DNA from: Candidatus Nitrotoga fabula
GTDB lineage: Bacteria > Pseudomonadota > Gammaproteobacteria > Burkholderiales > Gallionellaceae
Direction: 5' to 3'
DNA length: 64,000 bases
NCBI RefSeq assembly: GCF_905221025.1
Contig: NZ_CAJNBL010000002.1
Location: 1-64,000, forward strand
Under the pieces are notes generated by a model that was not told the origin of the DNA, ran no database searches, and saw only the letters and a program-made list of their open reading frames with translations. Numbering within the stretch: position 1 is the first letter of the stretch; each line of letters starts with the position of its first letter. The position numbers and the translations under genes were made by a program. Positions 4,910-35,829 of the stretch are shown piece by piece.

Positions 4910-6010
4910 ATGAGCAGAATCATCGCGCCGCAGTCGGTTACTTTGGTCCTGCCGGTATATAACGAAATCGATAATGTCGGTTCGCTGCTGTCGGAGCTGT
5001 ATCTGGCGGATTCCAGCCGGTTTGTCAAAAGGGTGATTTATGTCGATGACGATAGCCCGGATGGTACCAGTGAACACATTAAAAATACCAGATTTCCGCT
5101 GGAAGTCCTTTGCCTGCACCGGATCGGAAGACAAGGGCTGGGCTCTGCGGTTGTCGAAGGAATGTTGCTGGCGGATACAGAATACGTGGCTGTAATGGAT
5201 GCGGACGGCCAGCATTCTCCGGTTGATTTGGTCAGGATGATCCAGATGCTCCAGGAAACGGGGGCAAATATCCTGATTGGCTCGCGTTTCAAGGATAAGG
5301 TTTTACAGGAATCGCATACGGGTTTCAGGAACGGGTTAAGCCGGTTTGGAAACCGGATATCCCGGTTTTTGTTGAACCAGACCCTGACAGATCCTTTGAC
5401 CGGTTTCTTTTTGATGGAAAGGAAGTTGTTCCTGCAAGTGGCGAGAATAATCCGGCCATCCGGTTTCAAGATACTGCTCGAAATTTTGTACTCGCTTCGC
5501 TCCAGAAATCTGCTGATCCGGGAAATGCAGATCAGTTTCAGGCCGCGCAATGCGGGTGAATCAAAGTTGGATTCGGCGGTGGTGCTTGATTTTGTCGGGC
5601 AGGTACTGAGCCGGATGAGCAATGGTGTCATCCCGGAGAAGTTCCCCGGCTTTGCCATCATAGGTGGTTCCGGTGTTGTGATTCACTTTGCGGTTTTATA
5701 TTGTCTGCTCTTTGTGTACGGACAGACGTTTTTGGCATCGCAGGGCATGGCGATCCTGATGGCAATTGTCTGGAATTACACGCTGAACAACATGCTGACT
5801 TTCAGGAGAAATCGCAGGCTTGGCGCAAAATGGTTCAGAGGTCTGGCTTTGTTTATGGTGGTTTGCAGTGCCGGTGCGCTGGCTAACTTAGGCGTTGCGG
5901 GCATGCTGAACAGCAGCGGACTGGCCTGGTGGATTTCGGGACTGGCAGGGATTCTGGCAGGAGTGGGATGGAATTATTCTATGTCTAGATTCCTGGTGTG
6001 GAAAGCGTAG
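4910..6010 (+). CDS. GT2 glycosyltransferase fused to GtrA-like membrane domain
   Basis: 366 residues. Residues about 10-225 form a family 2 (dolichyl-phosphate-mannose-synthase-like) glycosyltransferase: LVLPVYNEIDNVGSL, the UDP/GDP-binding YVDDDSPDGT and the metal-binding DADGQHSP. From about residue 240 a GtrA-like region begins (FAIIGGSGVVIHFAVLYCLL) with four predicted membrane segments and the motif IVWNYTLNNMLTFR. Proteins of this build transfer a sugar from a nucleotide donor to undecaprenyl or polyprenyl phosphate and present or flip it for periplasmic sugar transferases. The polytopic genes at 6103-7578 and 10957-12357 could be such acceptor enzymes (inference). It is the only plus-strand gene in this part of the locus. 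Confidence 0.85.
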   Translation: MSRIIAPQSVTLVLPVYNEIDNVGSLLSELYLADSSRFVKRVIYVDDDSPDGTSEHIKNTRFPLEVLCLHRIGRQGLGSAVVEGMLLADTEYVAVMDADGQHSPVDLVRMIQMLQETGANILIGSRFKDKVLQESHTGFRNGLSRFGNRISRFLLNQTLTDPLTGFFLMERKLFLQVARIIRPSGFKILLEILYSLRSRNLLIREMQISFRPRNAGESKLDSAVVLDFVGQVLSRMSNGVIPEKFPGFAIIGGSGVVIHFAVLYCLLFVYGQTFLASQGMAILMAIVWNYTLNNMLTFRRNRRLGAKWFRGLALFMVVCSAGALANLGVAGMLNSSGLAWWISGLAGILAGVGWNYSMSRFLVWKA

Positions 6011-6102: not shown

Positions 6103-7578
6103 TCAGGGCTTTTCGGTATCATTTTTGGACCAGTGCTCTGCATTTCCAGAGCGGGAGCGCAGAATAAAGCCGGTTTTCGTGGCCTGTGATCTAAGGGTAT
6201 CGTAGTCCATGTCGCCGTGCAGCAGGAGTATCTGCCTGCATGATTTCAGGCTGCTTTCAGCGGTGATAAACTGCTTCGGGTTCAGTGCATCGGGTATCAG
6301 TGCGGCAATTCCGATCGACGCGCATATCTCATCCTTTTTCTCTTGGCTGGGCGGGTGGACTAGAGGTTGGAGGAAAGCAATCATGCTCCGGATGTCGCCC
6401 CGTTCTGCCTTGACTGCCTGTATGGGAATCCTGGAGTGGTTTTCCTGCATGTGGAGAAGATGCTGCACTGGAGAAGAAAGGGATAGCGCGAGTCCAAGGA
6501 TCAGTAGACATTCCATGGTTGTCGGGGGATTTTTTCCCCTTCCACGGGAAACGAAAACCGCAACCCAATTCAGGCAAATCAGCAGCCAGGGGAGGCCGTA
6601 ATACAGCGTAAATTGTCCTAGTTCATCCCGCACGGCGAGCAGGTAAATGGCGATGAGCGGTGAAAGCAGCACCAGTCCGGACAAATATCGACGGTCGTAA
6701 CTGCTCAGGGTAACGGTTCCTGTAATGATGATCAGAAAATTGTTCTGAGAAACCAGGTTTGCCAGCCGTTCTACCATGAAATGAGCAGACAGGTGGCTCC
6801 AGCCATCTCCGGAAAAATTCGACCCGAAGGTATCGGCTCCTGGGAAGAGTTTGCTCTTGATTAAAAAACAGAGTGCTGCAATCAGTACTCCGGCCAGTGC
6901 AAGAATGATTAGCTTTGTCTGTTCCCGGTTCCAGCCATCCTGGCGCCTGAAGTTCAGTGTCAGGATGAGTAAACAGATGAGCGCGGCATAAAATCCGCCG
7001 TCTTCCCGGATGAGCGGAAGCATGAGCAATGAAAGGACAAAAAGAAAGTTTCTGTTACGCAGATATGTGGCAAGGGCCAGCGATGTGGTTGCAATCATTG
7101 AAATTTCAAAATGGGGATACCCTGCTGCCTGGAACAGCAGGACGTTTGAACTTCCGATCAGGAGCGCAAGCATCATTGCGATCAGCCGGTGCGGCTGGGG
7201 AAGCCCGTTGGGTGGGGCCGCAATCAGATACAAAGCGAGATAGAAAAGTCCGAAAAACAGCCCTTGGTGGATGGCAAAGATTTCTACCCCATTCAGGCCG
7301 AAACCGATCGCAAGCGGTGCACCAAAAAGAAATAAATAGGGTGACAGATGGGTAGAGTAATAGCTTAGTTCGTCGATGATTCTGGGATTTTTCAGTAATG
7401 GATCGGCGGACTCGAATAAATGGGCAAACCAGCCGCTGTCGAAGAGATATCCGTGTGATGTGAAGTGGACCAGTATCCACCGGCCATGTAAAAATGCGAC
7501 CGCGCCCAGAACAATCCAGAAAATGAATAATTCGAATTTCCTGGAAGAGAATAATCTGTATATCCAGTTGCGTTTCAT
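6103..7578 (-). CDS. polytopic membrane protein, DUF2079-like
   Basis: About 491 residues from the ATG at 7578 (a longer form starts at the ATG at 7710 with a hydrophilic 44-residue extension). At least nine to ten hydrophobic segments are visible, starting with LFIFWIVLGAVAFLHG. The motifs THLSPYLF, AGYPHFEISM and LIREDGGFYAAL resemble the HFSP / HFE / RED signatures of DUF2079 proteins, thought to be related to GT-C glycosyltransferases. I infer a lipid-linked-sugar transferase or a polymer-modification role. I prefer 7578 because the first membrane segment then sits at the usual distance from the N-terminus, but no clear ribosome binding site supports either start. Confidence 0.65.
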   Translation of the reverse strand: MKRNWIYRLFSSRKFELFIFWIVLGAVAFLHGRWILVHFTSHGYLFDSGWFAHLFESADPLLKNPRIIDELSYYSTHLSPYLFLFGAPLAIGFGLNGVEIFAIHQGLFFGLFYLALYLIAAPPNGLPQPHRLIAMMLALLIGSSNVLLFQAAGYPHFEISMIATTSLALATYLRNRNFLFVLSLLMLPLIREDGGFYAALICLLILTLNFRRQDGWNREQTKLIILALAGVLIAALCFLIKSKLFPGADTFGSNFSGDGWSHLSAHFMVERLANLVSQNNFLIIITGTVTLSSYDRRYLSGLVLLSPLIAIYLLAVRDELGQFTLYYGLPWLLICLNWVAVFVSRGRGKNPPTTMECLLILGLALSLSSPVQHLLHMQENHSRIPIQAVKAERGDIRSMIAFLQPLVHPPSQEKKDEICASIGIAALIPDALNPKQFITAESSLKSCRQILLLHGDMDYDTLRSQATKTGFILRSRSGNAEHWSKNDTEKP

Positions 7579-18037: not shown

Positions 18038-18724
18038 TCATTTATATTCATTTTTTCGCATCCATTTGGTTGCGATCCATTTTTCACCAGATTTAACCGG
18101 TGCCCCTCCATGGAGCGTCAAAGGGTCCGTCTGGTTGAGTGAATTCAGGTAGGAGAAATAAAGGGCAGAACCTTTTCTGGGTATCACGCTGAGATGGATG
18201 TCAGGAAAAATGGTTTCTCCCCCGTCCTCTACTTCGTTGAGGTACAGGATCAGTGTAGATATTCTTTGTCCTCCCTGACTTAAATAAGTGGCACTTCCGG
18301 GTTCCTGTTCCGGGAAAAAATCAAAATGTGGTCGATATTCCTCCCCGATTTTATACCGCAGTATCTGAATTCCCTCTCCATTCTCGATCGGAAAATTCAA
18401 TAGCTCAGAAATTCGAAGCTCCAGCTGCTGGATCAAGGTATTTTCGTTTCGATGAAAATAGGTGCCTTCACTGGTTCTGCCTTCGTGCAGGATTTTGCCC
18501 CCGGACTGCAGGTCAACGACTGTTGATGGAGACAATTTATGTTGCGCTATTCCGATCAGTTCGTTACATTCGCTATCCGTCATAAAACCGTCAACGAGGA
18601 CTATTTCCGGGCGGGATAGGCGCAGCCTGACATTGACCAGACGATCAGAAAGCTGGATAAGGTTTCCCGGAGCAATCCGGCTGGGTTCGTAACTATACGA
18701 TTCGTTCGACAAATTGGTTTCCAT
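18038..18724 (-). CDS. prolyl 4-hydroxylase-like 2-oxoglutarate/Fe(II) oxygenase (RiPP locus)
   Basis: 228 residues with a double-stranded beta-helix of the P4H alpha-subunit type. Iron ligands are H133 and D135 in RPHFDFFPE and H205 in LTLHGGAPVKSGEKWIATKW; K215 should bind the 2-oxoglutarate carboxylate. GGETIFPD (168-175) is typical of bacterial P4H-like proteins, which hydroxylate proline in proteins or peptides. It lies 283 bases downstream of the ATP-grasp gene on the same strand. The only proline-rich targets in sight are the C-terminal tails of two of the three short peptides encoded at 22586-23239, so I infer a peptide-tailoring role. There is no signal peptide, so it acts in the cytoplasm. 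Confidence 0.85.
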   Translation of the reverse strand: METNLSNESYSYEPSRIAPGNLIQLSDRLVNVRLRLSRPEIVLVDGFMTDSECNELIGIAQHKLSPSTVVDLQSGGKILHEGRTSEGTYFHRNENTLIQQLELRISELLNFPIENGEGIQILRYKIGEEYRPHFDFFPEQEPGSATYLSQGGQRISTLILYLNEVEDGGETIFPDIHLSVIPRKGSALYFSYLNSLNQTDPLTLHGGAPVKSGEKWIATKWMRKNEYK

Positions 18725-18892
18725 CGTTTAACTTTCCTGCCAGTGGCAGTCATGTTTGAAAGATAATGTTTGCAAACTTATGAGTAAAGCGGTTCCGGAT
18801 TATGTCATTACATCATGAAGAGGGTGTATATAGAATATATTTCTGATTGCTGACGATCCAGGCATGTCAGCCTGGATGGTACATTTTTCCAT

Positions 18893-18915
18893 TTTTTCAA
18901 CTGATTATTGAAAAA
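18893..18915. promoter_or_regulatory. inverted-repeat box TTCAACTG...TTGAA upstream of the oxygenase gene
   Basis: Arms TTTTTCAA (18893-18900) and TTGAAAAA (18908-18915) pair perfectly over 8 bases around a 7-base centre. The inner sequence TTCAACTGATTATT closely matches boxes found at the start of the HExxH gene (21083-21117). It sits in the gap between the ATP-grasp gene and the oxygenase gene, 169 bases before the oxygenase start. It may be an operator of a locus regulator; a weak AT-rich hairpin is the alternative. Confidence 0.4.
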
Positions 18916-19007
18916 TCCCAGTCAAGAACCGGATTGCCGCCATGATATGTTTGTGCCACGAATTCAATGTGTTTTGTTCATCCTGATCTTGGTTTCGGGC
19001 TACAATA

Positions 19008-20879
19008 TCATTTCGGCTTGTTAGTCAAATATTGTTGCAATGTGGCCATCAGAATTTTGAACGCCTGATCTTCAATTTTATGCCCAGGCTGATTCCATTT
19101 GGTTAAATTTGCATTGAGTAAGTTGATTTTACTGATCGAGTCTACAGGAAGACCGGTGTATGCAAATTCATCTGTCTGAATCACCAGGATAATTCCGGAA
19201 ACTTCAGGCTTCATCAGTAATGCCTTGCATCGAAGAAACAGGCTGTCTGCCTCCAGTTCCAGATGGGTTTCTTCCGTTGCATGGAAGCTTGCCTGATGAG
19301 TAGTCAGATGCGCCCGAATTCCTTTCTCAAGCAGGAATTTTTGTCTTGCGAGGCCCTGATGCATGGCCTCTTGGTCTCCAACAAATACCTCGACGGGAAT
19401 TCTTCCCTTGTATGGCAAAAGATCTTTGAGATATTCCGATATAACTTTTTTTGATTCTTCTGAGCTCCCGCTTAGATAAGGGACACAATTAATCTCATTG
19501 AGGGCGGCACCATTTTGGTGCCAGGGTATCCGGACATCCGTGGACATCAAGTCTACACCTGCAACATTCAGTCTGAGCAGTCGGGTGGCTTGTATAGCCA
19601 ACTGAATATTATCCGGGTGAATCGTGTCGGTCATTTTTTCGGCAGATCCTCCCCATTCCGTGGATTCAATTTTTCTGAGGGGAACCAGAACGTCTTTTTC
19701 CGGAATGGAGTTAAGCCGATAGCCGGCGGATGTAATGGATTCGATAGCCAGTTCGTCCAAAGGAAAGGGTTTCAGGCGTTTATGCTTCGGTTTTTTTGCT
19801 TCATCTGCATTGGCTTTGCCGATGAGTTCCTCAACCGTCAGAACCCCGTCTCCTTTGACTGATTTGGGTGTGCGCTTCACGGTAAACAGGTGTTTGTCAT
19901 TCGCGATGAAAATTCTATGGCAAACCCCCTGGATTTGTTTTTCGACCAGAATGTTCCCGGAAAATCCAGCCGCCTTTTGATAACCTTCTGTGACCAGTGC
20001 GTCACTGTCGATATTGATGGTGACGCCTTCTCCGCGGTCCTTGTCGGCTGGCTTGATTACAACCGGAAACTGGATCCGGTGCGCCGCATGGATGGCATCT
20101 TCGGCATTTTTTACCAGAATGCCTTGAGGGACCGGGAATCCGGATTCTTTGAGGATCTGGCTGGCATGGTGTTTCCTTTGGCTGATTTTTGATCCAATGG
20201 CTGAATCCAGTTCGGTAGAGCTTCTGTCCATTAATCGTGACTGAGCTCCCCATCCCAGCTGATATATTCCAAGTCCCAGATAGCTGAAGGGAATGTTTTC
20301 CCGGAATGCGGATTTCAGGATGGATATGGTGCAGGATTCGCTGCCCAGGGAGAGTTCCCTGTCAGAAGAAAACTGTTTCTGCAGGTCAGCAAAAATCTGG
20401 TCTGAATCTGGATTTTCCAGATTTCCATTCTGGAATTGCAATAATGCCTGTGTGGCTTTTTCAAATGAGGTTGTGACTGTGCTGAATGGCACGTGATTGA
20501 TGTATGGTATGAGCAGGGTGGTTTTGAACATGGGGGGGATGCTTGCTTCAGGTTCTATGCTTAAGATGCATCCTGGATCAAAACTGGGTACGCGAAGAGC
20601 CTGAAGCAATGAGTTTGCCAGGTGGTTCACCCGCCAGACAAATTGAGCCAGATGGACGATATCCTGGCTGCTTTTTGAGAAATCGAAACCATGGTAAGGA
20701 GCTACATCAATTTCAAAATTTTCTCGGAGCCAGTCATCCATTTTTCCTGTATCGATGGCCGGAATGATCGCGAATGTAAAACTGACTACCTGGGAAGGCT
20801 GACTTAAACCATGCCGAAAGCCATTGAGTGTCAGGTTTTTAGGGATTTGTGCTAAAGTCGAATCTGTAGTATTTTTCAT
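19008..20879 (-). CDS. cyanophycin-synthetase-like ATP-grasp ligase with truncated, P-loop-less Mur-ligase half (RiPP locus)
   Basis: 623 residues. Residues about 1-200 resemble the N domain of cyanophycin synthetase. Residues about 203-490 are an ATP-grasp domain close to the CphA one: GIYQLGWGAQSRLMDRS at 204-220, IKPADKDRGEGVTINID at 275-291, AGVDLMSTD at 440-448, and metal-binding NEINCVPYL at 461-469. Residues about 494-600 align by eye with the start of the CphA Mur-ligase-like domain (IPVEVFVGDQEAMHQG, HLTTHQASFH, GLPVDSISKINLLNANL), but the ATP-binding GTNGKTTT is replaced by GDQEAMHQ (501-508) and the rest is missing. It should therefore activate a carboxylate as acyl-phosphate and join it to an amine with only one active centre. 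Given its neighbours, a peptide substrate is likelier than cyanophycin (inference). It is divergent from the HExxH gene. Confidence 0.85.
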   Translation of the reverse strand: MKNTTDSTLAQIPKNLTLNGFRHGLSQPSQVVSFTFAIIPAIDTGKMDDWLRENFEIDVAPYHGFDFSKSSQDIVHLAQFVWRVNHLANSLLQALRVPSFDPGCILSIEPEASIPPMFKTTLLIPYINHVPFSTVTTSFEKATQALLQFQNGNLENPDSDQIFADLQKQFSSDRELSLGSESCTISILKSAFRENIPFSYLGLGIYQLGWGAQSRLMDRSSTELDSAIGSKISQRKHHASQILKESGFPVPQGILVKNAEDAIHAAHRIQFPVVIKPADKDRGEGVTINIDSDALVTEGYQKAAGFSGNILVEKQIQGVCHRIFIANDKHLFTVKRTPKSVKGDGVLTVEELIGKANADEAKKPKHKRLKPFPLDELAIESITSAGYRLNSIPEKDVLVPLRKIESTEWGGSAEKMTDTIHPDNIQLAIQATRLLRLNVAGVDLMSTDVRIPWHQNGAALNEINCVPYLSGSSEESKKVISEYLKDLLPYKGRIPVEVFVGDQEAMHQGLARQKFLLEKGIRAHLTTHQASFHATEETHLELEADSLFLRCKALLMKPEVSGIILVIQTDEFAYTGLPVDSISKINLLNANLTKWNQPGHKIEDQAFKILMATLQQYLTNKPK

Positions 20880-21035
20880 TATGGAAAGCAGCTGTATTTA
20901 ATGCGGGAAGAACCCTTTGCAGGTTGCATTGTTATGGTTCAATGGGTTTCAGAATGATTCCGCTGGCTATTTGGGGTTGGTGATAAGTCTGTATCCAGTT
21001 TGCGGTATGGTATGCGGTAATTTCACTATGGTCTG

Positions 21036-21117
21036 ACCAGTTGGATTATATTTTATGTAATTTAACTGGTTATCGTTATTTATTCAACTGGTTATTTTCA
21101 TGAATTCAACTGGTTAT
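21036..21117. repeat. iteron-like AACTGGTTAT repeats at 22-bp steps, with one inverted half-copy
   Basis: AACTGGTTAT occurs at 21064-21073, 21086-21095 and 21108-21117, spaced exactly 22 bases apart, two helical turns. The second and third copies are longer (TTCAACTGGTTATTTT). An inverted partial copy ACCAGTT lies at 21036-21042 on the side of the ATP-grasp gene. The third copy is inside the first codons of the HExxH gene as annotated. The arrangement suits cooperative binding of a regulator between the divergent modification genes. A recent tandem duplication is an alternative. Confidence 0.6.
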
Positions 21118-22143
21118 TTTTATCCGTCACGGGATCGCGGTTTGGAACTGGACTGTCAGATCAGAGCATCTCTATCCGGGAGCCTGAAATGGTGTCTCAG
21201 CAATCCTAATCTGCCTGGGAAAAAGAATTTATTGATCAAAGACAACTGGTTTGCCAGGCCGGTTGATTTTGGTATCTATTATGATCTGGTCCAGGCTCTC
21301 ATGCTTATTGAAGAGCAGGGAAAGGATGTCATCCCGGTTGAGGACATTGAACTGCTTGTCAATCAGCTTGAATGCTCCATGAATCAAACTGGCTCTCCGG
21401 AATTGCAGCGATCCGGGTATCCCGAGATCGGCACGTTGAGATCGCCGTTTTTTACTGATAAAGAACTGGAATGCATGGTTCGCTGGCTGGATCTGGAACC
21501 AGAAAATTCGATGGGTCTGACTTCTCTGGAAGAAGGTGAACTGAGTCAGTCCGGGAAAAATCTTGCACGGGCATTCGATGCGTTGGAGCGCCTGGTTCCT
21601 GATTTTCACGCTGAGTTTTTTGCAATTACCAGGCAGGTTATCCTGGCGAAACCCAATGGCTCTCAAAAATTAACTTTCGGTGGGGCATCTTCTTTCGCAC
21701 TGTGGGGGGCGTTGACCCTTAACGTTGATGCACACCGCGACTGGTGGCTTTATTTACCTTCCCTGGTTCATGAATATTCTCATAACCTTTTATTTGGCAT
21801 TGCCAGAAATGAACCGCTGGTATTGAATGATCCTGAAGAACTCTATCATTCTCCCTTGAGGCAGGAAGCCCGCCCTATGGACGGGATATACCATGCAACA
21901 TTTGTTTCAGCCAGAGAGGCAGTTGCCATGTCCCGGGCATTGCAGGTTTTGAGGAGTCCGAATATTCCAGAATCTCTTACAGAGATTCTGGAATATTGTG
22001 AATCGGTTCAGCAGTCTTCAACCCGTGCTTTCTGGGATTGTCTGGGGGTACTGGAAAAAGAGGGGCGGCTTTCAGATCTGGGTGCCCAGGTGATGAAAGA
22101 TACCCGGGTGGCTATGCTTGAAAATGGGCTTGAACTGGTTTGA
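21100..22143 (+). CDS. HExxH-motif putative peptide-modification protein (RiPP locus)
   Basis: 347 residues. The zinc/iron-type motif HEYSH is at 224-228 (LPSLVHEYSHNLLFGIARNE), followed by RPMDGIYHATFV at 258-269. This arrangement, with H265 as likely third ligand, is that of the HExxH-motif proteins annotated beside natural-product peptide genes (mod_HExxH type). Some members of that group act as 2-oxoglutarate-dependent hydroxylases rather than peptidases; which chemistry applies here cannot be read from sequence. There is no signal peptide. The start at 21100 lies within the 22-bp repeats and has no clear ribosome binding site. It is followed 442 bases later on the same strand by the three precursor-like peptides. 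Confidence 0.8.
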   Translation: MNSTGYFYPSRDRGLELDCQIRASLSGSLKWCLSNPNLPGKKNLLIKDNWFARPVDFGIYYDLVQALMLIEEQGKDVIPVEDIELLVNQLECSMNQTGSPELQRSGYPEIGTLRSPFFTDKELECMVRWLDLEPENSMGLTSLEEGELSQSGKNLARAFDALERLVPDFHAEFFAITRQVILAKPNGSQKLTFGGASSFALWGALTLNVDAHRDWWLYLPSLVHEYSHNLLFGIARNEPLVLNDPEELYHSPLRQEARPMDGIYHATFVSAREAVAMSRALQVLRSPNIPESLTEILEYCESVQQSSTRAFWDCLGVLEKEGRLSDLGAQVMKDTRVAMLENGLELV

Positions 22144-22585
22144 GGAGTATGCTAGTGTTCTGAAAGAAGTTTCGGGGCGTAAGTCCGGGTTGACTACGTA
22201 AGGTTGGTGGTTTCCCGTTTTGGATGATTCCGGATTTCGCAGAATTTGATGGCTCTGGTCATGGATCATTATAGAGGATAACCATGATTACAGCTTAAGA
22301 TCGGACGGAAAAACACGTTTCATACAGACCATGGACGTTGGTTCCGTTGGTTGCCCAGGTTGAAGACAAGATGTTTTTGTAAAGTCGGTGGATACTGAGT
22401 CCTGGGTAAGTTTTCGAATCTTATACAGATTACTTGTTTTCAGATTCATAAAGCCTGTTTTGAATAGGCAGGAAAACACAGCTGCCACTAGATAAAAGTG
22501 CATGAACTGCATGTCAGGATGTTGTATTTTTTTGTTAGAGTGTTGTTTGGTATGTTTGATTTTAATTTTTTTCGAGGAGATTACA
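22144..22585. other. leader region of the short-peptide array
   Basis: 442 bases with no credible gene. A minus-strand ORF (22288-22599) has no family resemblance and runs antisense to the first peptide's start. The promoter of the peptide genes probably lies here, in the T-rich stretch at 22515-22570, but no clean -35/-10 pair at 16-18 spacing was found. None of the TTCAACTG boxes is present. Confidence 0.4.
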
Positions 22586-22723
22586 ATGAAAAAGAACAAG
22601 AATATAACTTTGTTGGCCCCTTATGGTTCCATGAAATTTGCTTCGCTGGCGGTTAAAGTAGGGAAGGTTCCGCCTCCACCAGTAGCTCCTGCGAACAAAA
22701 TCCCCGGGAAAATCCCCGGTTAA
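22586..22723 (+). CDS. short peptide 1, candidate RiPP precursor (LAPYGSM motif, proline-rich tail)
   Basis: 45 residues. The start is fixed by the ribosome binding site CGAGGAGA at 22573-22580, five bases before the ATG. After MKKNKNITL comes the shared block LAPYGSMKFASLAVKVG (residues 10-26), then a tail with four consecutive prolines and a tandem KIPG-KIPG end. Peptides 2 and 3 carry the same block at the same distance from the N-terminus. The location next to an ATP-grasp ligase, a HExxH protein and a P4H-like oxygenase is what marks these as modification substrates (inference). The block could be the recognition sequence or the core; the proline tail is a possible hydroxylation target. 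No signal peptide. Family not recognised. Confidence 0.85.
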   Translation: MKKNKNITLLAPYGSMKFASLAVKVGKVPPPPVAPANKIPGKIPG

Positions 22724-22803
22724 AAATTTTTTACTGAACCTGATGCCCGGAGTAGCTAAGAGCTTTCTATTTTGGGCGGGCGGTTCGATTCAGGAAAAAA
22801 TTC

Positions 22804-22815
22804 AACTGTACAGTT
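22804..22815. promoter_or_regulatory. perfect 12-bp palindrome AACTGTACAGTT upstream of peptide 2
   Basis: AACTGTACAGTT is a perfect palindrome lying 28 bases before the peptide 2 start, preceded by TTC, so the left half again reads TTCAACTG as in the other boxes of the locus. The position between peptide 1 and peptide 2 suggests a control point inside the array. It could be an operator or chance, since 12-bp palindromes occur by chance at low frequency. Confidence 0.35.
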
Positions 22816-22843
22816 TTGAATATTTTCCACTATGGAGGATGCG

Positions 22844-23032
22844 ATGCTAACTCAAAATACCAGGTTTGTCCTGGCTCCTTATGGTTCGATGGAATTTGCT
22901 TCATTGGTCACTAAGGTTGGCGAGGGAAAAAATTTTTCCATTCTGGCTCCTTACGGGAGCATGAAACTTGCTGCTCTGGCCACCAAAGTGAGTGGCAAGG
23001 CTACGGCACCAGTTGGCCAGGTTTCAGTTTAG
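22844..23032 (+). CDS. short peptide 2, candidate RiPP precursor with two LAPYGSM blocks
   Basis: 62 residues from the ATG at 22844, chosen over the ATG at 22832 because the earlier one overlaps the ribosome binding site GGAGG (22834-22838). The first block is LAPYGSMEFASLVTKVG (residues 10-26), and after a short linker GKNFSI the second is LAPYGSMKLAALATKVS (34-50). The tail, GKATAPVGQVSV, lacks the polyproline stretch of peptides 1 and 3. Duplication of the block within one peptide favours the view that the block itself, not only the tail, is processed (multi-core precursor), by analogy with other RiPP families. The duplicate copies differ in codons as well as residues, so the duplication is not recent. 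Confidence 0.85.
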   Translation: MLTQNTRFVLAPYGSMEFASLVTKVGEGKNFSILAPYGSMKLAALATKVSGKATAPVGQVSV

Positions 23033-23083
23033 GGAGCCTGCGGGTGAGAGCCTGATTAACTTGTTTCATTGAGGAGAATAATT

Positions 23084-23239
23084 ATGTCGAATATCAATAG
23101 CGTTATTTTATTGGCACCATATGGTTCGATGAAGTTCAAGGCAATGGCGACCAAGGTAGGATTAAGAAAGATGCCGCCGCCTCCACCTTCTCCTTCGCCT
23201 TCACCGCCACCTACTGTGACTTCTGCTGTTCAGAGTTAA
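23084..23239 (+). CDS. short peptide 3, candidate RiPP precursor (LAPYGSM motif, polyproline-serine tail)
   Basis: 51 residues, with ribosome binding site GAGGAG at 23071-23076 before the ATG. After MSNINSVIL comes LAPYGSMKFKAMATKVG (residues 10-26), then LRKM and a tail of five prolines followed by Ser-Pro repeats (PPPPPSPSPSPPP), ending TVTSAVQS. It follows peptide 2 after 51 bases on the same strand and is closed by a strong terminator, so the three peptides form one array. The proline-rich tail is the best visible substrate for the P4H-like enzyme of the locus (inference). Its short length means automatic annotation may have missed it. Confidence 0.85.
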   Translation: MSNINSVILLAPYGSMKFKAMATKVGLRKMPPPPPSPSPSPPPTVTSAVQS

Positions 23240-23265
23240 TATATTTGGTTCAGGCGAAATATCAG

Positions 23266-23297
23266 TCAGGCCGTTCGCAGAACGGCCTGATTTTTTT
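23266..23297 (+). terminator. rho-independent terminator of the peptide array
   Basis: Perfect 11-bp stem TCAGGCCGTTC / GAACGGCCTGA with a GCA loop (23266-23290) followed directly by seven T residues. It is 26 bases after the stop of peptide 3 and separates the array from the convergent ybiT gene. It is the clearest intrinsic terminator in the window and implies a dedicated, probably abundant, short transcript. Confidence 0.93.
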
Positions 23298-30094: not shown

Positions 30095-30653
30095 GATTCC
30101 CCTTTTTGTCCATCAAAAACAGCCTGATCTGGCGAGGATAGTTGATGACTGTATCTCCTGCGCATACGGGCACTGCATTAAAATGCTTGCAACGCAGCGG
30201 GATTTCTACTATTTCTCCATCGTGCAGACAGCCACATTTCTCGGGTAGTGTAACGATTCCATGCAGCTTTCAGAAATCATTTATTTGGCTAACCTTATCT
30301 GGTTTTCGTATTAGCAAGGTTGGGATAAGGCTAGGTTTATTTAAACTGACCGAAACAGATCTTGACTGGGTTGGAGCAGGCTTTTTTTGTGAATTGGCTT
30401 TTGTCTAAATGGGAAATTTCATCCAAATCGAAATTATTTCTGAGATGGGCGTAACCGGTGACCTGACAAAATCCCTTTGTATAGATGCGAGGCTGATGCA
30501 AAATTTTTCAAGAAGGGAAGAAGGGTATCTTTAGATGCTATTTCTGGGAAAAAAATGCATGTGGCAATTAATGCAATAATCTGAGTAATTTTCCAGGTGT
30601 TACCCTAATAAATGTCAAGCAATGAGAACATGTTCTTTTCTGGAAAATCAGTG
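30095..30653. other. intergenic region upstream of cysB, no gene seen
   Basis: 559 bases; ORFs are short and without resemblance to known families. The cysB promoter should lie close to 30095-30200 but no clear boxes were found. There is no obvious structured RNA. Confidence 0.35.
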
Positions 30654-31106
30654 TCAGTGACTGCCTGTGCTGCCAAAACCTGCGTTTCCGCGCTGGCTCG
30701 TAGGGAAATCCTGCACGACATTGAGCTCCATTTGCTGTACTGGAACAATTACCAGTTGCGCGATGCGTTCCAGGGGCATCAGGGTAAAAGGGTGTTGTCC
30801 TCGGTTCCAGGTTGAAATGAATATTTGGCCTTGATAATCTGAGTCGATTAGTCCGACCAAGTTGCCTAGCACGATGCCATGCTTATGGCCCAGTCCGGAG
30901 CGAGGCAGGATCATGGCTGCGAAATGAGGGTCGGCCAGATGAATTGCAATCCCACTTGGGATAAGTTCGGACTGGCCGGGATAAATAGTCAGGCTTTGGT
31001 TTATGCATGCGCGCAAATCTATCCCCGCTGACCCCGGAGTGGCGTATGCAGGCGGATGTTCATGTAGGCGAGGATCAAGTATTTTTATATCCACTCTTTT
31101 TTTCAT
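30654..31106 (-). CDS. dut: dUTP diphosphatase
   Basis: 150 residues with all five trimeric dUTPase motifs: [10 protein letters not shown] (1), [13 protein letters not shown] (2, 3), [11 protein letters not shown], and the C-terminal GNAGFGSTG (5). It hydrolyses dUTP to dUMP and PPi, limiting uracil in DNA and feeding thymidylate synthesis. Its ATG overlaps the coaBC stop by 4 bases, the common proteobacterial coaBC-dut arrangement. Confidence 0.96.
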
Positions 31107-33646: not shown

Positions 33647-34639
33647 ATGAAATTGATTTATGTTTTTTTACTGTTGACGCTGTCTCTTGCGGCTTCCGCC
33701 AGCACATATGCGGCGGGTTCTGTGTTGATCATCAATTGCGGGGGGGCAGATGTAGGTGCAGAGGTATTGGTAAATGGTGAGTTTAAAGGGGAGTGTCCAC
33801 TAGATATCAATGTACCTGCCGGAAAACTGAGGTTAATGGTTCAAAAAAAGGTGGATGACTACAATGACCGGATTTATGAACAGGAAATTCGTCTGGGAGA
33901 GGATGTTGTAAAAAAAATCGACGTTGTATTGGGAGTCCCTCAGTTGAATGCGGAGGGGAAAAAACTGACATTAAAATCCTCAGGTACAGAATTGGCCAAC
34001 ACAGATAAATTGCAGGAAGAAAAAAAGATATGTGTTCATTGTCCTGAAATGGTTCCAATTCCCAATACAAATTTTGCCATTGCCAAGTATACCGTAACAT
34101 TCCAGGACTGGGATGCCTGTGTGGTTGATGGCGGCTGCAATGGATACCGGCCTTCGGATAAGGAATGGGGACGCGCAACACGCCCGGTGATTAATGTGAG
34201 CTGGAACGATGCTCAGGCTTATATCAAATGGCTGTCAAATAAAACGGGCAACACCTACCGTCTGCCTACTGAGGAGGAATGGGAAATTGCTGCGCGGGCT
34301 GGCACTACCACAGATTATTATTGGGGTATTTTCCCGTTCGGAGACTCAACCGAAAGCGTAAATGCGAATTGTAATGGCTGTGGAAGCAAGTGGGATAACA
34401 GAACAACCGCGCCGGTCGGAAGCTTTAAGCCGAACGGATATGGCCTGTATGACATGTCTGGCAATGTCTGGCAGTGGACTGATAGTTGCTGGGGAGATGA
34501 CTGTAGTTACCGGGTGCTTCGCGGTGGATCATGGAATGACACTGGAACAAATATCCGGATTTCCGCCCGGTTTAAGGATGCTGTGAATGAACGTTACCAT
34601 ATCAGTGGATTCAGACTGGCAATGACCCTGAAAAAATAA
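33647..34639 (+). CDS. secreted SUMF1/formylglycine-generating-enzyme-fold protein with PEGA-like N-domain, copy 1
   Basis: 330 residues. A signal peptide (MKLIYVFLLLTLSLAASAST, cleaved near AYAAG) is followed by a PEGA-like beta domain at about 25-95 (DVGAEVLVNGEFKGECPLDI), a linker, and an FGE-sulfatase fold at about 125-330: MVPIPNTNFAIAKYTVTFQD, the RLPTEEEWEIAARAG block, NGYGLYDMSGNVWQWTDSCW and LRGGSWND. The active-site cysteine pair of true formylglycine enzymes is not evident, so it is more likely a structural or ligand-binding SUMF1 fold. It resides in the periplasm or outer surface. Paralogous to the next gene; no sulfatase gene is nearby. Confidence 0.85.
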   Translation: MKLIYVFLLLTLSLAASASTYAAGSVLIINCGGADVGAEVLVNGEFKGECPLDINVPAGKLRLMVQKKVDDYNDRIYEQEIRLGEDVVKKIDVVLGVPQLNAEGKKLTLKSSGTELANTDKLQEEKKICVHCPEMVPIPNTNFAIAKYTVTFQDWDACVVDGGCNGYRPSDKEWGRATRPVINVSWNDAQAYIKWLSNKTGNTYRLPTEEEWEIAARAGTTTDYYWGIFPFGDSTESVNANCNGCGSKWDNRTTAPVGSFKPNGYGLYDMSGNVWQWTDSCWGDDCSYRVLRGGSWNDTGTNIRISARFKDAVNERYHISGFRLAMTLKK

Positions 34640-34690
34640 TACCAGCCCAGATTTGTTCTGTGGTCGTGTCGATAGAAGAAAGGGCTGGTA
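34640..34690 (+). repeat. 9-bp inverted repeat between the two SUMF1-like genes
   Basis: TACCAGCCC at 34640-34648 pairs exactly with GGGCTGGTA at 34682-34690 over a 33-base spacer. The left arm starts at the stop codon of copy 1. It lacks a T-run, so it is not an intrinsic terminator; it could stabilise or separate the transcript of copy 1. Confidence 0.45.
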
Positions 34691-34866
34691 CAGCAAGCGA
34701 TGTCCCAAAGACCGATGGTGCAGCTGAGGTCAGTCTCAGTCTGCGTTTTAATCAGCCATTTCCAGGAATGAATCTATTCTTGGATTTATAATAAGCAAGA
34801 TTTTGTTTGGATAGACTTAAGTACCTTTATATTCGTCCTGATTTTTATTTTATTAACGGAGATTTC

Positions 34867-35829
34867 ATGAAGTCCATATATTTTCTGAGCATCCTTATGT
34901 TGAGTGCATTCACCACAAATGTTTATGCTGTCAGTTCCAAATTGAATGTGGTCTGTAAAGGTGATGATGTGGGCGCAGAAGTTTCAGTTAACGGAAAATT
35001 TAAAGGTGAATGCCCGCTCGAAATTAAAGTGCCCATGGGTAAATTGAAATTGAAGGTGCAAAAAAACGAACGTATATTCGAGCAAGAAATTAACGTAGGA
35101 AATAACACCACTAAAACAGTGGAAGCAAACTTGATTACTCCAGTATTCCATACAGCAGGTAAAGAATCGCAGCCTGAGCAATCGAAATCTGCCAAGAGGG
35201 ATAATAAAGGGAATGTAGTATCCAATAAGCCTTGCAGTTTCTGCCCTGAAATGGTGCCGATACCAGGTGCAGATTTCGAGATCGGGAAATATACGGTTAC
35301 ATTTGAAGAATGGGATGCATGCGTCGCAGATGGTGGATGCAACGGTTATGTACCTTTGGATGAAGAATGGGGGCGTGGTAAGCAACCTGTGGTCAATGTG
35401 AGCTGGAACGACATACAATATTACCTTGAATGGTTATCTGCAAAAACCGGAAAAACCTACCGGTTACCCAGTGAACATGAAATGGAAATCGCGACGCGGG
35501 CTGGCACCCTGACCCAATATTATTGGGGGGATGACCTTGGGTTCCATAATGCCAATTGTCGTGGTTGTGGCAACCGGTATGAGAAAAAGAGAAATATTCC
35601 TATGCCGGTTGGAAGTTTCAAACCCAACCCGTATGGTTTGTATGACATGATGGGTAATGTCTGGCAATGGACGGATGGCTGCCGGGAAGGGGACTGTTCA
35701 AGACTGGTACTTCGTGGTGGTTCATTCGAATACGAGCCTGAATATATGACGTTAGGCTATCGCGAGGGTATCGAGGCCAGTGAGCGGGTCAATAATCTTG
35801 GATTCCGCGTAGCCAGAACTTTGCCGTAA
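34867..35829 (+). CDS. secreted SUMF1-fold protein with PEGA-like N-domain, copy 2
   Basis: 320 residues from the ATG at 34867 (ribosome binding site ACGGAG just upstream; the preceding 20 in-frame codons are not signal-peptide-like). Signal peptide MKSIYFLSILMLSAFTTNVYA, PEGA-like domain (DVGAEVSVNGKFKGECPLEI), linker, then an SUMF1 domain with MVPIPGADFEIGKYTVTFEE, RLPSEHEMEIATRAG, NPYGLYDMMGNVWQWTDGCR and LRGGSFEY. It clearly arose with copy 1 by tandem duplication, but residue differences are many, so the event is old. Function unknown; a cell-envelope binding role is possible. Confidence 0.85.
   Translation: MKSIYFLSILMLSAFTTNVYAVSSKLNVVCKGDDVGAEVSVNGKFKGECPLEIKVPMGKLKLKVQKNERIFEQEINVGNNTTKTVEANLITPVFHTAGKESQPEQSKSAKRDNKGNVVSNKPCSFCPEMVPIPGADFEIGKYTVTFEEWDACVADGGCNGYVPLDEEWGRGKQPVVNVSWNDIQYYLEWLSAKTGKTYRLPSEHEMEIATRAGTLTQYYWGDDLGFHNANCRGCGNRYEKKRNIPMPVGSFKPNPYGLYDMMGNVWQWTDGCREGDCSRLVLRGGSFEYEPEYMTLGYREGIEASERVNNLGFRVARTLP

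Follow-up and report, generated by a model that had tools for sequence, protein, structure and literature searches.

A candidate RiPP locus with scattered LAPYGS precursor genes in Candidatus Nitrotoga fabula

The question raised by positions 18038-23297 of the Candidatus Nitrotoga fabula DNA analyzed here (64,000 nucleotides of contig NZ_CAJNBL010000002.1, called the window) is whether three enzymes encoded there act on the short peptides encoded beside them. The enzymes are a prolyl 4-hydroxylase (P4H)-like Fe(II)/2-oxoglutarate oxygenase, a truncated cyanophycin-synthetase-like ATP-grasp protein and a protein with an HExxH motif, and the three peptides have a LAPYGSM block in common. All these genes, the individual ribosome binding sites and the closing terminator are present as described in the initial annotation, which proposed a locus for ribosomally synthesized and post-translationally modified peptides (RiPPs). 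As expected of RiPP precursors, the peptides are short, are encoded beside modifying enzymes and combine a conserved region with a variable one. We consider it probable that a single enzyme set modifies a family of nine precursors, three of them local and six supplied in trans. As regards the kind of system, the RiPP reading has good support, and for the exact chemistry we infer the steps given below.

The LAPYGS peptides

The three peptide genes lie on the plus strand, and an intrinsic terminator with a 13-pair stem, a loop of 3 and a T-run (23264-23292, plus strand) closes them. Peptides 1 (22586-22723, 45 aa, profile E 7.8e-18) and 3 (23084-23239, 51 aa, 4.7e-17) have Pro-rich tails and are both preceded by the ribosome binding site GAGGAG; peptide 2 (22844-23032, 62 aa, site GGAGGA) contains the block twice in tandem (1.6e-15 and 3.8e-14). 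Common to the three is the pattern LAPYGSM..F..LATKVG. That the block is conserved, as had been noticed, is borne out by counting: the LAPYGSM-coding pattern has four exact copies in the window, and none of 100 shuffles reached four, even when two mismatches were allowed.

The count of three peptides given by the initial annotation holds for the window and is an undercount for the genome. A profile made from the four window copies found seven further blocks in six genes on other contigs, which brings the totals for the 2.3-Mb genome to 11 blocks in nine genes, six of the nine outside the window. The scattered genes are located on contig 3 (9371-9757 and about 30102-30231, both on the minus strand), contig 26 (10166-10336, plus strand) and contig 22 (4434-4826, plus; 5093-5467, minus; 30917-31009, plus), and in three of the nine the block is fused to an S74 domain, as described later. 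With an eleven-copy profile all 11 blocks scored E<=4e-13, the next match being at 0.2. The consensus of the nine precursors is LAPYGS(M/F)KFxxLATKVG, with LAPYGS and the later Lys invariant in 11 of 11 copies.

The block family looks, from its sequences, like an old duplication kept by selection at the protein level rather than a recent repeat. In the LAPYGS codons the mean proportion of synonymous differences (pS) was 0.78 versus 0.03 for non-synonymous ones (pN; 55 pairs, with synonymous sites saturated), and over the 17-codon block the means were 0.76 and 0.19. Furthermore, except for the three homologous S74 genes, the similarity in DNA among dispersed copies is restricted to short stretches at the block, and therefore they do not form a young mobile repeat.

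The block profiles were also searched in roughly 500 genomes, comprising 148 relatives and 368 further genomes of the class. The four-copy profile matched none of the 148 relatives, and the eleven-copy profile gave weak noise alone (E 0.003-0.007) in three of the 368. A block scan of viral sequences confirmed nothing, a tblastn search of plasmids with one peptide gave no match, and no mention of LAPYGS strings was found in the literature searched. In the neighborhood of one scattered LAPYGS gene, about 0.7 kb upstream on the same strand, there is a pair formed by a LodA-like protein (Pfam LodA_N/LodA_C) and an FAD-binding LodB-like protein (L052:10919-13649, minus strand).

The three enzymes

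The hidden Markov model searches that the initial annotation suggested gave a family match for each enzyme, that of the ATP-grasp being far below the cut-off. The HExxH protein (21100-22143, plus strand, 347 aa) matches TIGR04267, 'aKG-HExxH-type peptide beta-hydroxylase', with E 1.3e-21 and 77.4 bits, above the cut-off of 40, and also matches ChlH (8s5f) at 7.7e-5. Across six HExxH relatives or sequences, H224, E225 and H228, S251-P-L-R, R258-P-M, H265 and R272 are invariant. By its sequence, this protein is an alpha-ketoglutarate (alphaKG)-HExxH peptide hydroxylase by family, beyond the bare motif, with its active site intact. HExxH is a zincin motif as well, and the alphaKG-HExxH enzymes PflC/PosC can cleave the backbone oxidatively (PMC12636437); a zinc protease that removes a leader or destroys the peptides is nevertheless very unlikely, given the match above the cut-off to the alphaKG-HExxH hydroxylases and the invariance of SPLR, of RPM, of the distal His and of the Arg, and on these grounds we rejected a plain protease.

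Characterized alphaKG-HExxH enzymes act on RiPP precursors, in which they hydroxylate His, Asp, Gln, Phe or Pro or oxidatively cut the backbone (PMC12636437, PMC13060819). The window enzyme resembles ChlH, BpmH, PflC/PosC and PesO in belonging to the same family (TIGR04267, with the similarity to ChlH) and in having its gene beside short peptides. Unlike them, it is accompanied neither by a radical SAM fusion nor by an MNIO, its partners being the P4H and the cyanophycin-synthetase-like ATP-grasp, and its precursors are of a different family and scattered. Hydroxylation of the peptides is likely. Among the three modification steps proposed here, we place most confidence in this one: with Fe(II) and 2-oxoglutarate, the HExxH enzyme would hydroxylate a residue within the block or adjacent to it. 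A tblastn search of plasmids with this protein gave relatives at 22-26% only, and scans of genome contigs with the HExxH and ATP-grasp proteins found no relatives; such scans use a small number of specific patterns and are sensitive to close relatives only.

The P4H-like oxygenase (18038-18724, minus strand, 228 aa) matches Pfam 2OG-FeII_Oxy_3 (PF13640) at 3.6e-15 and, in phmmer searches against the PDB, a Bacillus P4H (5hv0) at 7e-52 over residues 19-228 and an algal P4H at 3e-41. As in the bacterial enzyme of B. anthracis, homology extends over the full length and the HxD...H...K motif is kept in the alignment with the Bacillus P4H; it differs from that enzyme in its surroundings, a peptide locus marked by a shared repeat. 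Second in confidence is the step in which it would hydroxylate proline, the target being the Pro that is invariant in LAPYGS or else prolines of the tails.

Since P4H relatives occur without such peptides, the membership of this gene in the locus rests on its position and on the shared repeat, and for the same reason the repeat is valued above mere position. Three copies of TTCAACTGGTTATT with 22-bp spacing occupy the divergent promoter region (21061-21118, plus strand), the last one overlapping the HExxH gene at its start, and a single 14-bp copy, TTCAACTGATTATT, lies between the ATP-grasp and P4H genes (18896-18909, plus strand) and represents a fourth copy with one mismatch. Both sites are candidate operators. 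All four matches to the 14-bp repeat in the window fall within the locus, and none of 100 shuffles reached four. The shared repeat would thus tie the P4H to the rest of the locus better than position alone. No copy of it was found near the scattered precursors, and the search for a common upstream element of the dispersed precursors yielded only short words, mostly A/T-rich.

The ATP-grasp protein (19008-20879, minus strand, 623 aa) matches cyanophycin synthetase in its N-terminal part and its ATP-grasp (CphA 7lgm, 9e-47; NF010623 over residues 158-580, 1.2e-73) and is far below the cut-offs for CphA1 (249 vs 877 bits for NF010623, 226 vs 850 bits for TIGR02068). In its M-domain, VFVGDQEAMHQ replaces the P-loop, and an equal loss is seen in the full-length relatives of genomes G213 and G220, each 34% identical. 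According to their sequences, the three ATP-grasps define a P-loop-less subfamily. CphA2 is a shortened relative of cyanophycin synthetase, as is the window protein. The latter has the N domain and ATP-grasp in common with CphA1/CphA2; unlike them, it lacks the M-domain P-loop, scores far under the CphA model cut-offs and adjoins peptides and oxygenases. Cyanophycin synthetase uses this ATP-grasp to attach Asp to the C-terminus of the backbone (PMC9262961), and for this reason the addition of an amino acid to the C-terminus of the peptides is plausible by analogy. The window enzyme would activate the peptide C-terminus and add an amino acid, the Arg-adding half of cyanophycin synthetase having been lost; of the three steps, this is the one held with least confidence.

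An ATP-grasp that adjoins small peptides in which Ser, Tyr and Lys are invariant could also form lactam or lactone rings between side chains, in which case the peptides would be graspetides. Such rings are unlikely, since the block has no invariant Asp or Glu among its 11 copies that could serve as a ring donor. In addition, this ATP-grasp belongs to the cyanophycin synthetase family. We rejected graspetides for these two reasons and regard them as extremely unlikely.

A tblastn search of plasmids with the ATP-grasp returned mostly full cyanophycin synthetases, and for the truncated ATP-grasp of G213 no full-length match was found among the G213 relatives searched. The AlphaFold model of the window protein (predicted local distance difference test, pLDDT, 56) was too poor for a fold search. 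Two other arrangements were observed. In G220 the truncated cyanophycin-synthetase-like ATP-grasp adjoins a 2OG-FeII_Oxy_3 oxygenase (L033:8616-11267, minus strand), and in G527 an AMP-binding enzyme is adjacent to a second ATP-grasp protein and itself matches the truncated ATP-grasp in its C-terminal part (L035:9261-14761, minus strand).

Related loci in other genomes

The association between the enzymes and short peptides recurs in other genomes. G213 encodes on one strand, in order, the ATP-grasp relative, a 43-aa peptide with a ribosome binding site and an HExxH relative 29% identical to that of the window. A short peptide directly upstream of the HExxH relative is found in four unrelated genomes (G213, G397, G330 and G325), at L034:8575-8706 (minus strand), L103:8297-8506 (minus), L102 about 7280-7465 (plus) and L101:7440-7538 (plus). 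The four peptides have an N-terminal LDxxK(L/M) in common, which in three of them continues to xG(F/Y), and the G397 peptide presents a tandem repeat, LGRLFSKRG. It should be noted that the motif was derived from two HExxH loci and then found in two of seven others, five being without it; its chance of occurrence was put at roughly 0.2-0.3% per locus, and for a single upstream region at no more than about 0.3%. Apparently, the LDxxK(L/M) peptides upstream of alphaKG-HExxH genes constitute an unrecorded precursor family.

The neighbors of the HExxH gene are an AMP-binding protein, a carrier and a thioesterase in G397, and in G330 a protein whose C-terminus resembles an ATP-grasp (our own reading, with no Pfam hit); no similar neighbor was noted at the G325 locus. 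Further copies of the G213-type peptide were sought in the four genomes and none was found, so scattering is seen in the window genome only.

These loci bear on the possibility that the block is a localization or cargo tag, of the encapsulin-cargo or secretion-signal type, unrelated to enzymes that act on something else. A short N-terminal block on varied scattered proteins, folded S74 domains included, would suit a tag; no relative of the block was found with the enzymes elsewhere, and HExxH relatives also adjoin AMP-ligases. However, three of the nine block genes follow directly after the HExxH gene, the block is succeeded in most carriers by just a short tail and hence by no cargo, and in four genomes relatives of the HExxH enzyme again have peptides beside them. 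We therefore consider a tag unlikely.

Other HExxH genes were observed in different surroundings. In G140 (L037:574-7024) one is found with cupin/JmjC-like, MFS-like transporter and YcaO-like proteins (called by eye) and a 48-aa candidate precursor. A single run in G402 (L104:6012-11074) contains a radical-SAM-like protein, the HExxH protein, a secretion-like protein and a transporter with the appearance of a C39-peptidase-ABC type, all called by eye except the HExxH; it is possibly a ChlBH-like cluster. G325 has a second HExxH gene, close behind open reading frames of which one resembles a nitrile-hydratase-type leader peptide (L100:6409-8590). Elsewhere in the window, at 33647-35829 (plus strand), two adjacent, mutually similar proteins were assigned by eye to PEGA-like and sulfatase-modifying-factor-like families.

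Precursor layout, S74 fusions and significance

Which part of the precursors would be modified is a question on which the sequences point both ways: the tandem blocks favor the block as the core or part of it, and the N-terminal place of the block together with the Pro-rich tails favors a leader plus tail. In the second layout the block would be a leader or recognition sequence only, and the modified core would be the tail, which varies and is often rich in Pro; the P4H would hydroxylate its prolines and the ATP-grasp would extend it, with the S74 domains as further cargo. A conserved N-terminal block before variable tails is the usual RiPP layout, three tails contain 37-40% Pro, a Pro comes shortly after the block in every precursor, and the shared motif is N-terminal in G213, G397 and G330 too. 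On the other hand, two precursors have the block in tandem, and it is cores rather than leaders that multiply so; the stand-alone 32-aa peptide of contig 22 has a tail of few residues, and the strongest constraint falls on LAPYGS itself. We regard the leader-only layout as possible though doubtful.

In three dispersed genes the block is the N-terminus of a protein with an S74 (endosialidase chaperone/autoprotease) domain, two of which match Pfam Peptidase_S74 at 1.4e-6 and 1.2e-5 (28.9 and 26.0 bits; cut-off 22). S-D-x-R-x-K opens all three domains (SDIRFK, SDARCK and SDIRCK), with the same spacing as the MYRF dyad S578/K583, with D579, and as that of phage endosialidases (PMC3742443). For the two longer S74 genes the Met nearest to the block was taken as the start codon, because a better ribosome binding site precedes it. 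The Ser-Lys dyad is placed to cut the domain off, and the predicted cut before the dyad Ser would free a peptide of 31-32 residues. The stand-alone contig 22 peptide MNNTKNIPLLAPYGSMKFLALSTKIAGKVPSG, of 32 residues, ends about where the S74 linkers do (GKTVP|S), which is suggestive of self-cleavage freeing a peptide as long as the stand-alone one. As in endosialidase tail spikes and MYRF, the SDxRxK dyad starts the domain; in those proteins a long fiber or a DNA-binding protein stands in front, whereas here there is just a 31-32-residue peptide. The contig shared by two of the LAPYGS-S74 genes also encodes a long Gly-His-His repeat protein with EF-hand-like stretches (L054:820-1440, plus strand).

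A more speculative proposal, which we consider rather unlikely, is that the S74 chaperone/autoprotease would trimerize some precursors and self-cleave to free the modified 31-32-residue peptide, and that the truncated cyanophycin synthetase would extend its C-terminus without a template. To our knowledge, neither S74 self-release nor untemplated C-terminal extension has a precedent in RiPP biosynthesis.

The prochlorosins are a known case of a single enzyme serving scattered precursors (PMC10783134). The arrangement described here is like that of prochlorosins and synechococsins in having one enzyme set and many precursor genes, some adjoining the enzymes and others alone elsewhere. It is unlike them in its enzymes and chemistry, in the conserved part, which is a short block and not a Nif11-type leader, and in the S74 fusions of some precursors.

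Several observations weigh against a RiPP system with scattered precursors. A transporter, a leader peptidase and a regulator are all absent beside the locus. Of the roughly 500 genomes searched, the block is present in this one only. The precursors have no common C-terminal residue, which is awkward for a C-terminal ligase, and the third S74 match (7.8e-4, 20.1 bits) is slightly below the Pfam cut-off of 22. The AlphaFold model of one S74 precursor was poor (pLDDT 50) and of no use for a fold search. LDxxK(L/M), the motif of the peptides beside other HExxH genes, is absent from the window peptides, which would therefore form a separate precursor family with a related pair of enzymes acting on it. 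The initial annotation had named enzyme homologues without such peptides nearby as evidence that would count against it: for the P4H this was found in part, with homologues in 7 of 99 relatives, none of them with the block (0 of 148), and for the ATP-grasp weakly, as the full-length relative of G220 has no peptide candidate beside it. The RiPP locus proposed there remains the best reading given the HExxH family match and the peptides beside relatives in four genomes.

As the locus has no exporter, an intracellular role is possible for the system. If the proposed system is correct, scattered substrates would be known from a further peptide family besides the lanthipeptides, and peptide maturation would become a role of a cyanophycin-synthetase-like ligase. 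A new route of RiPP release, needing no separate protease, is suggested by the S74 fusions. Beyond this genome, alphaKG-HExxH genes with an LDxxK(L/M) peptide directly upstream, three of the four adjoining an ATP-grasp or an AMP-forming enzyme, form a wider, apparently unrecorded group that can be mined.

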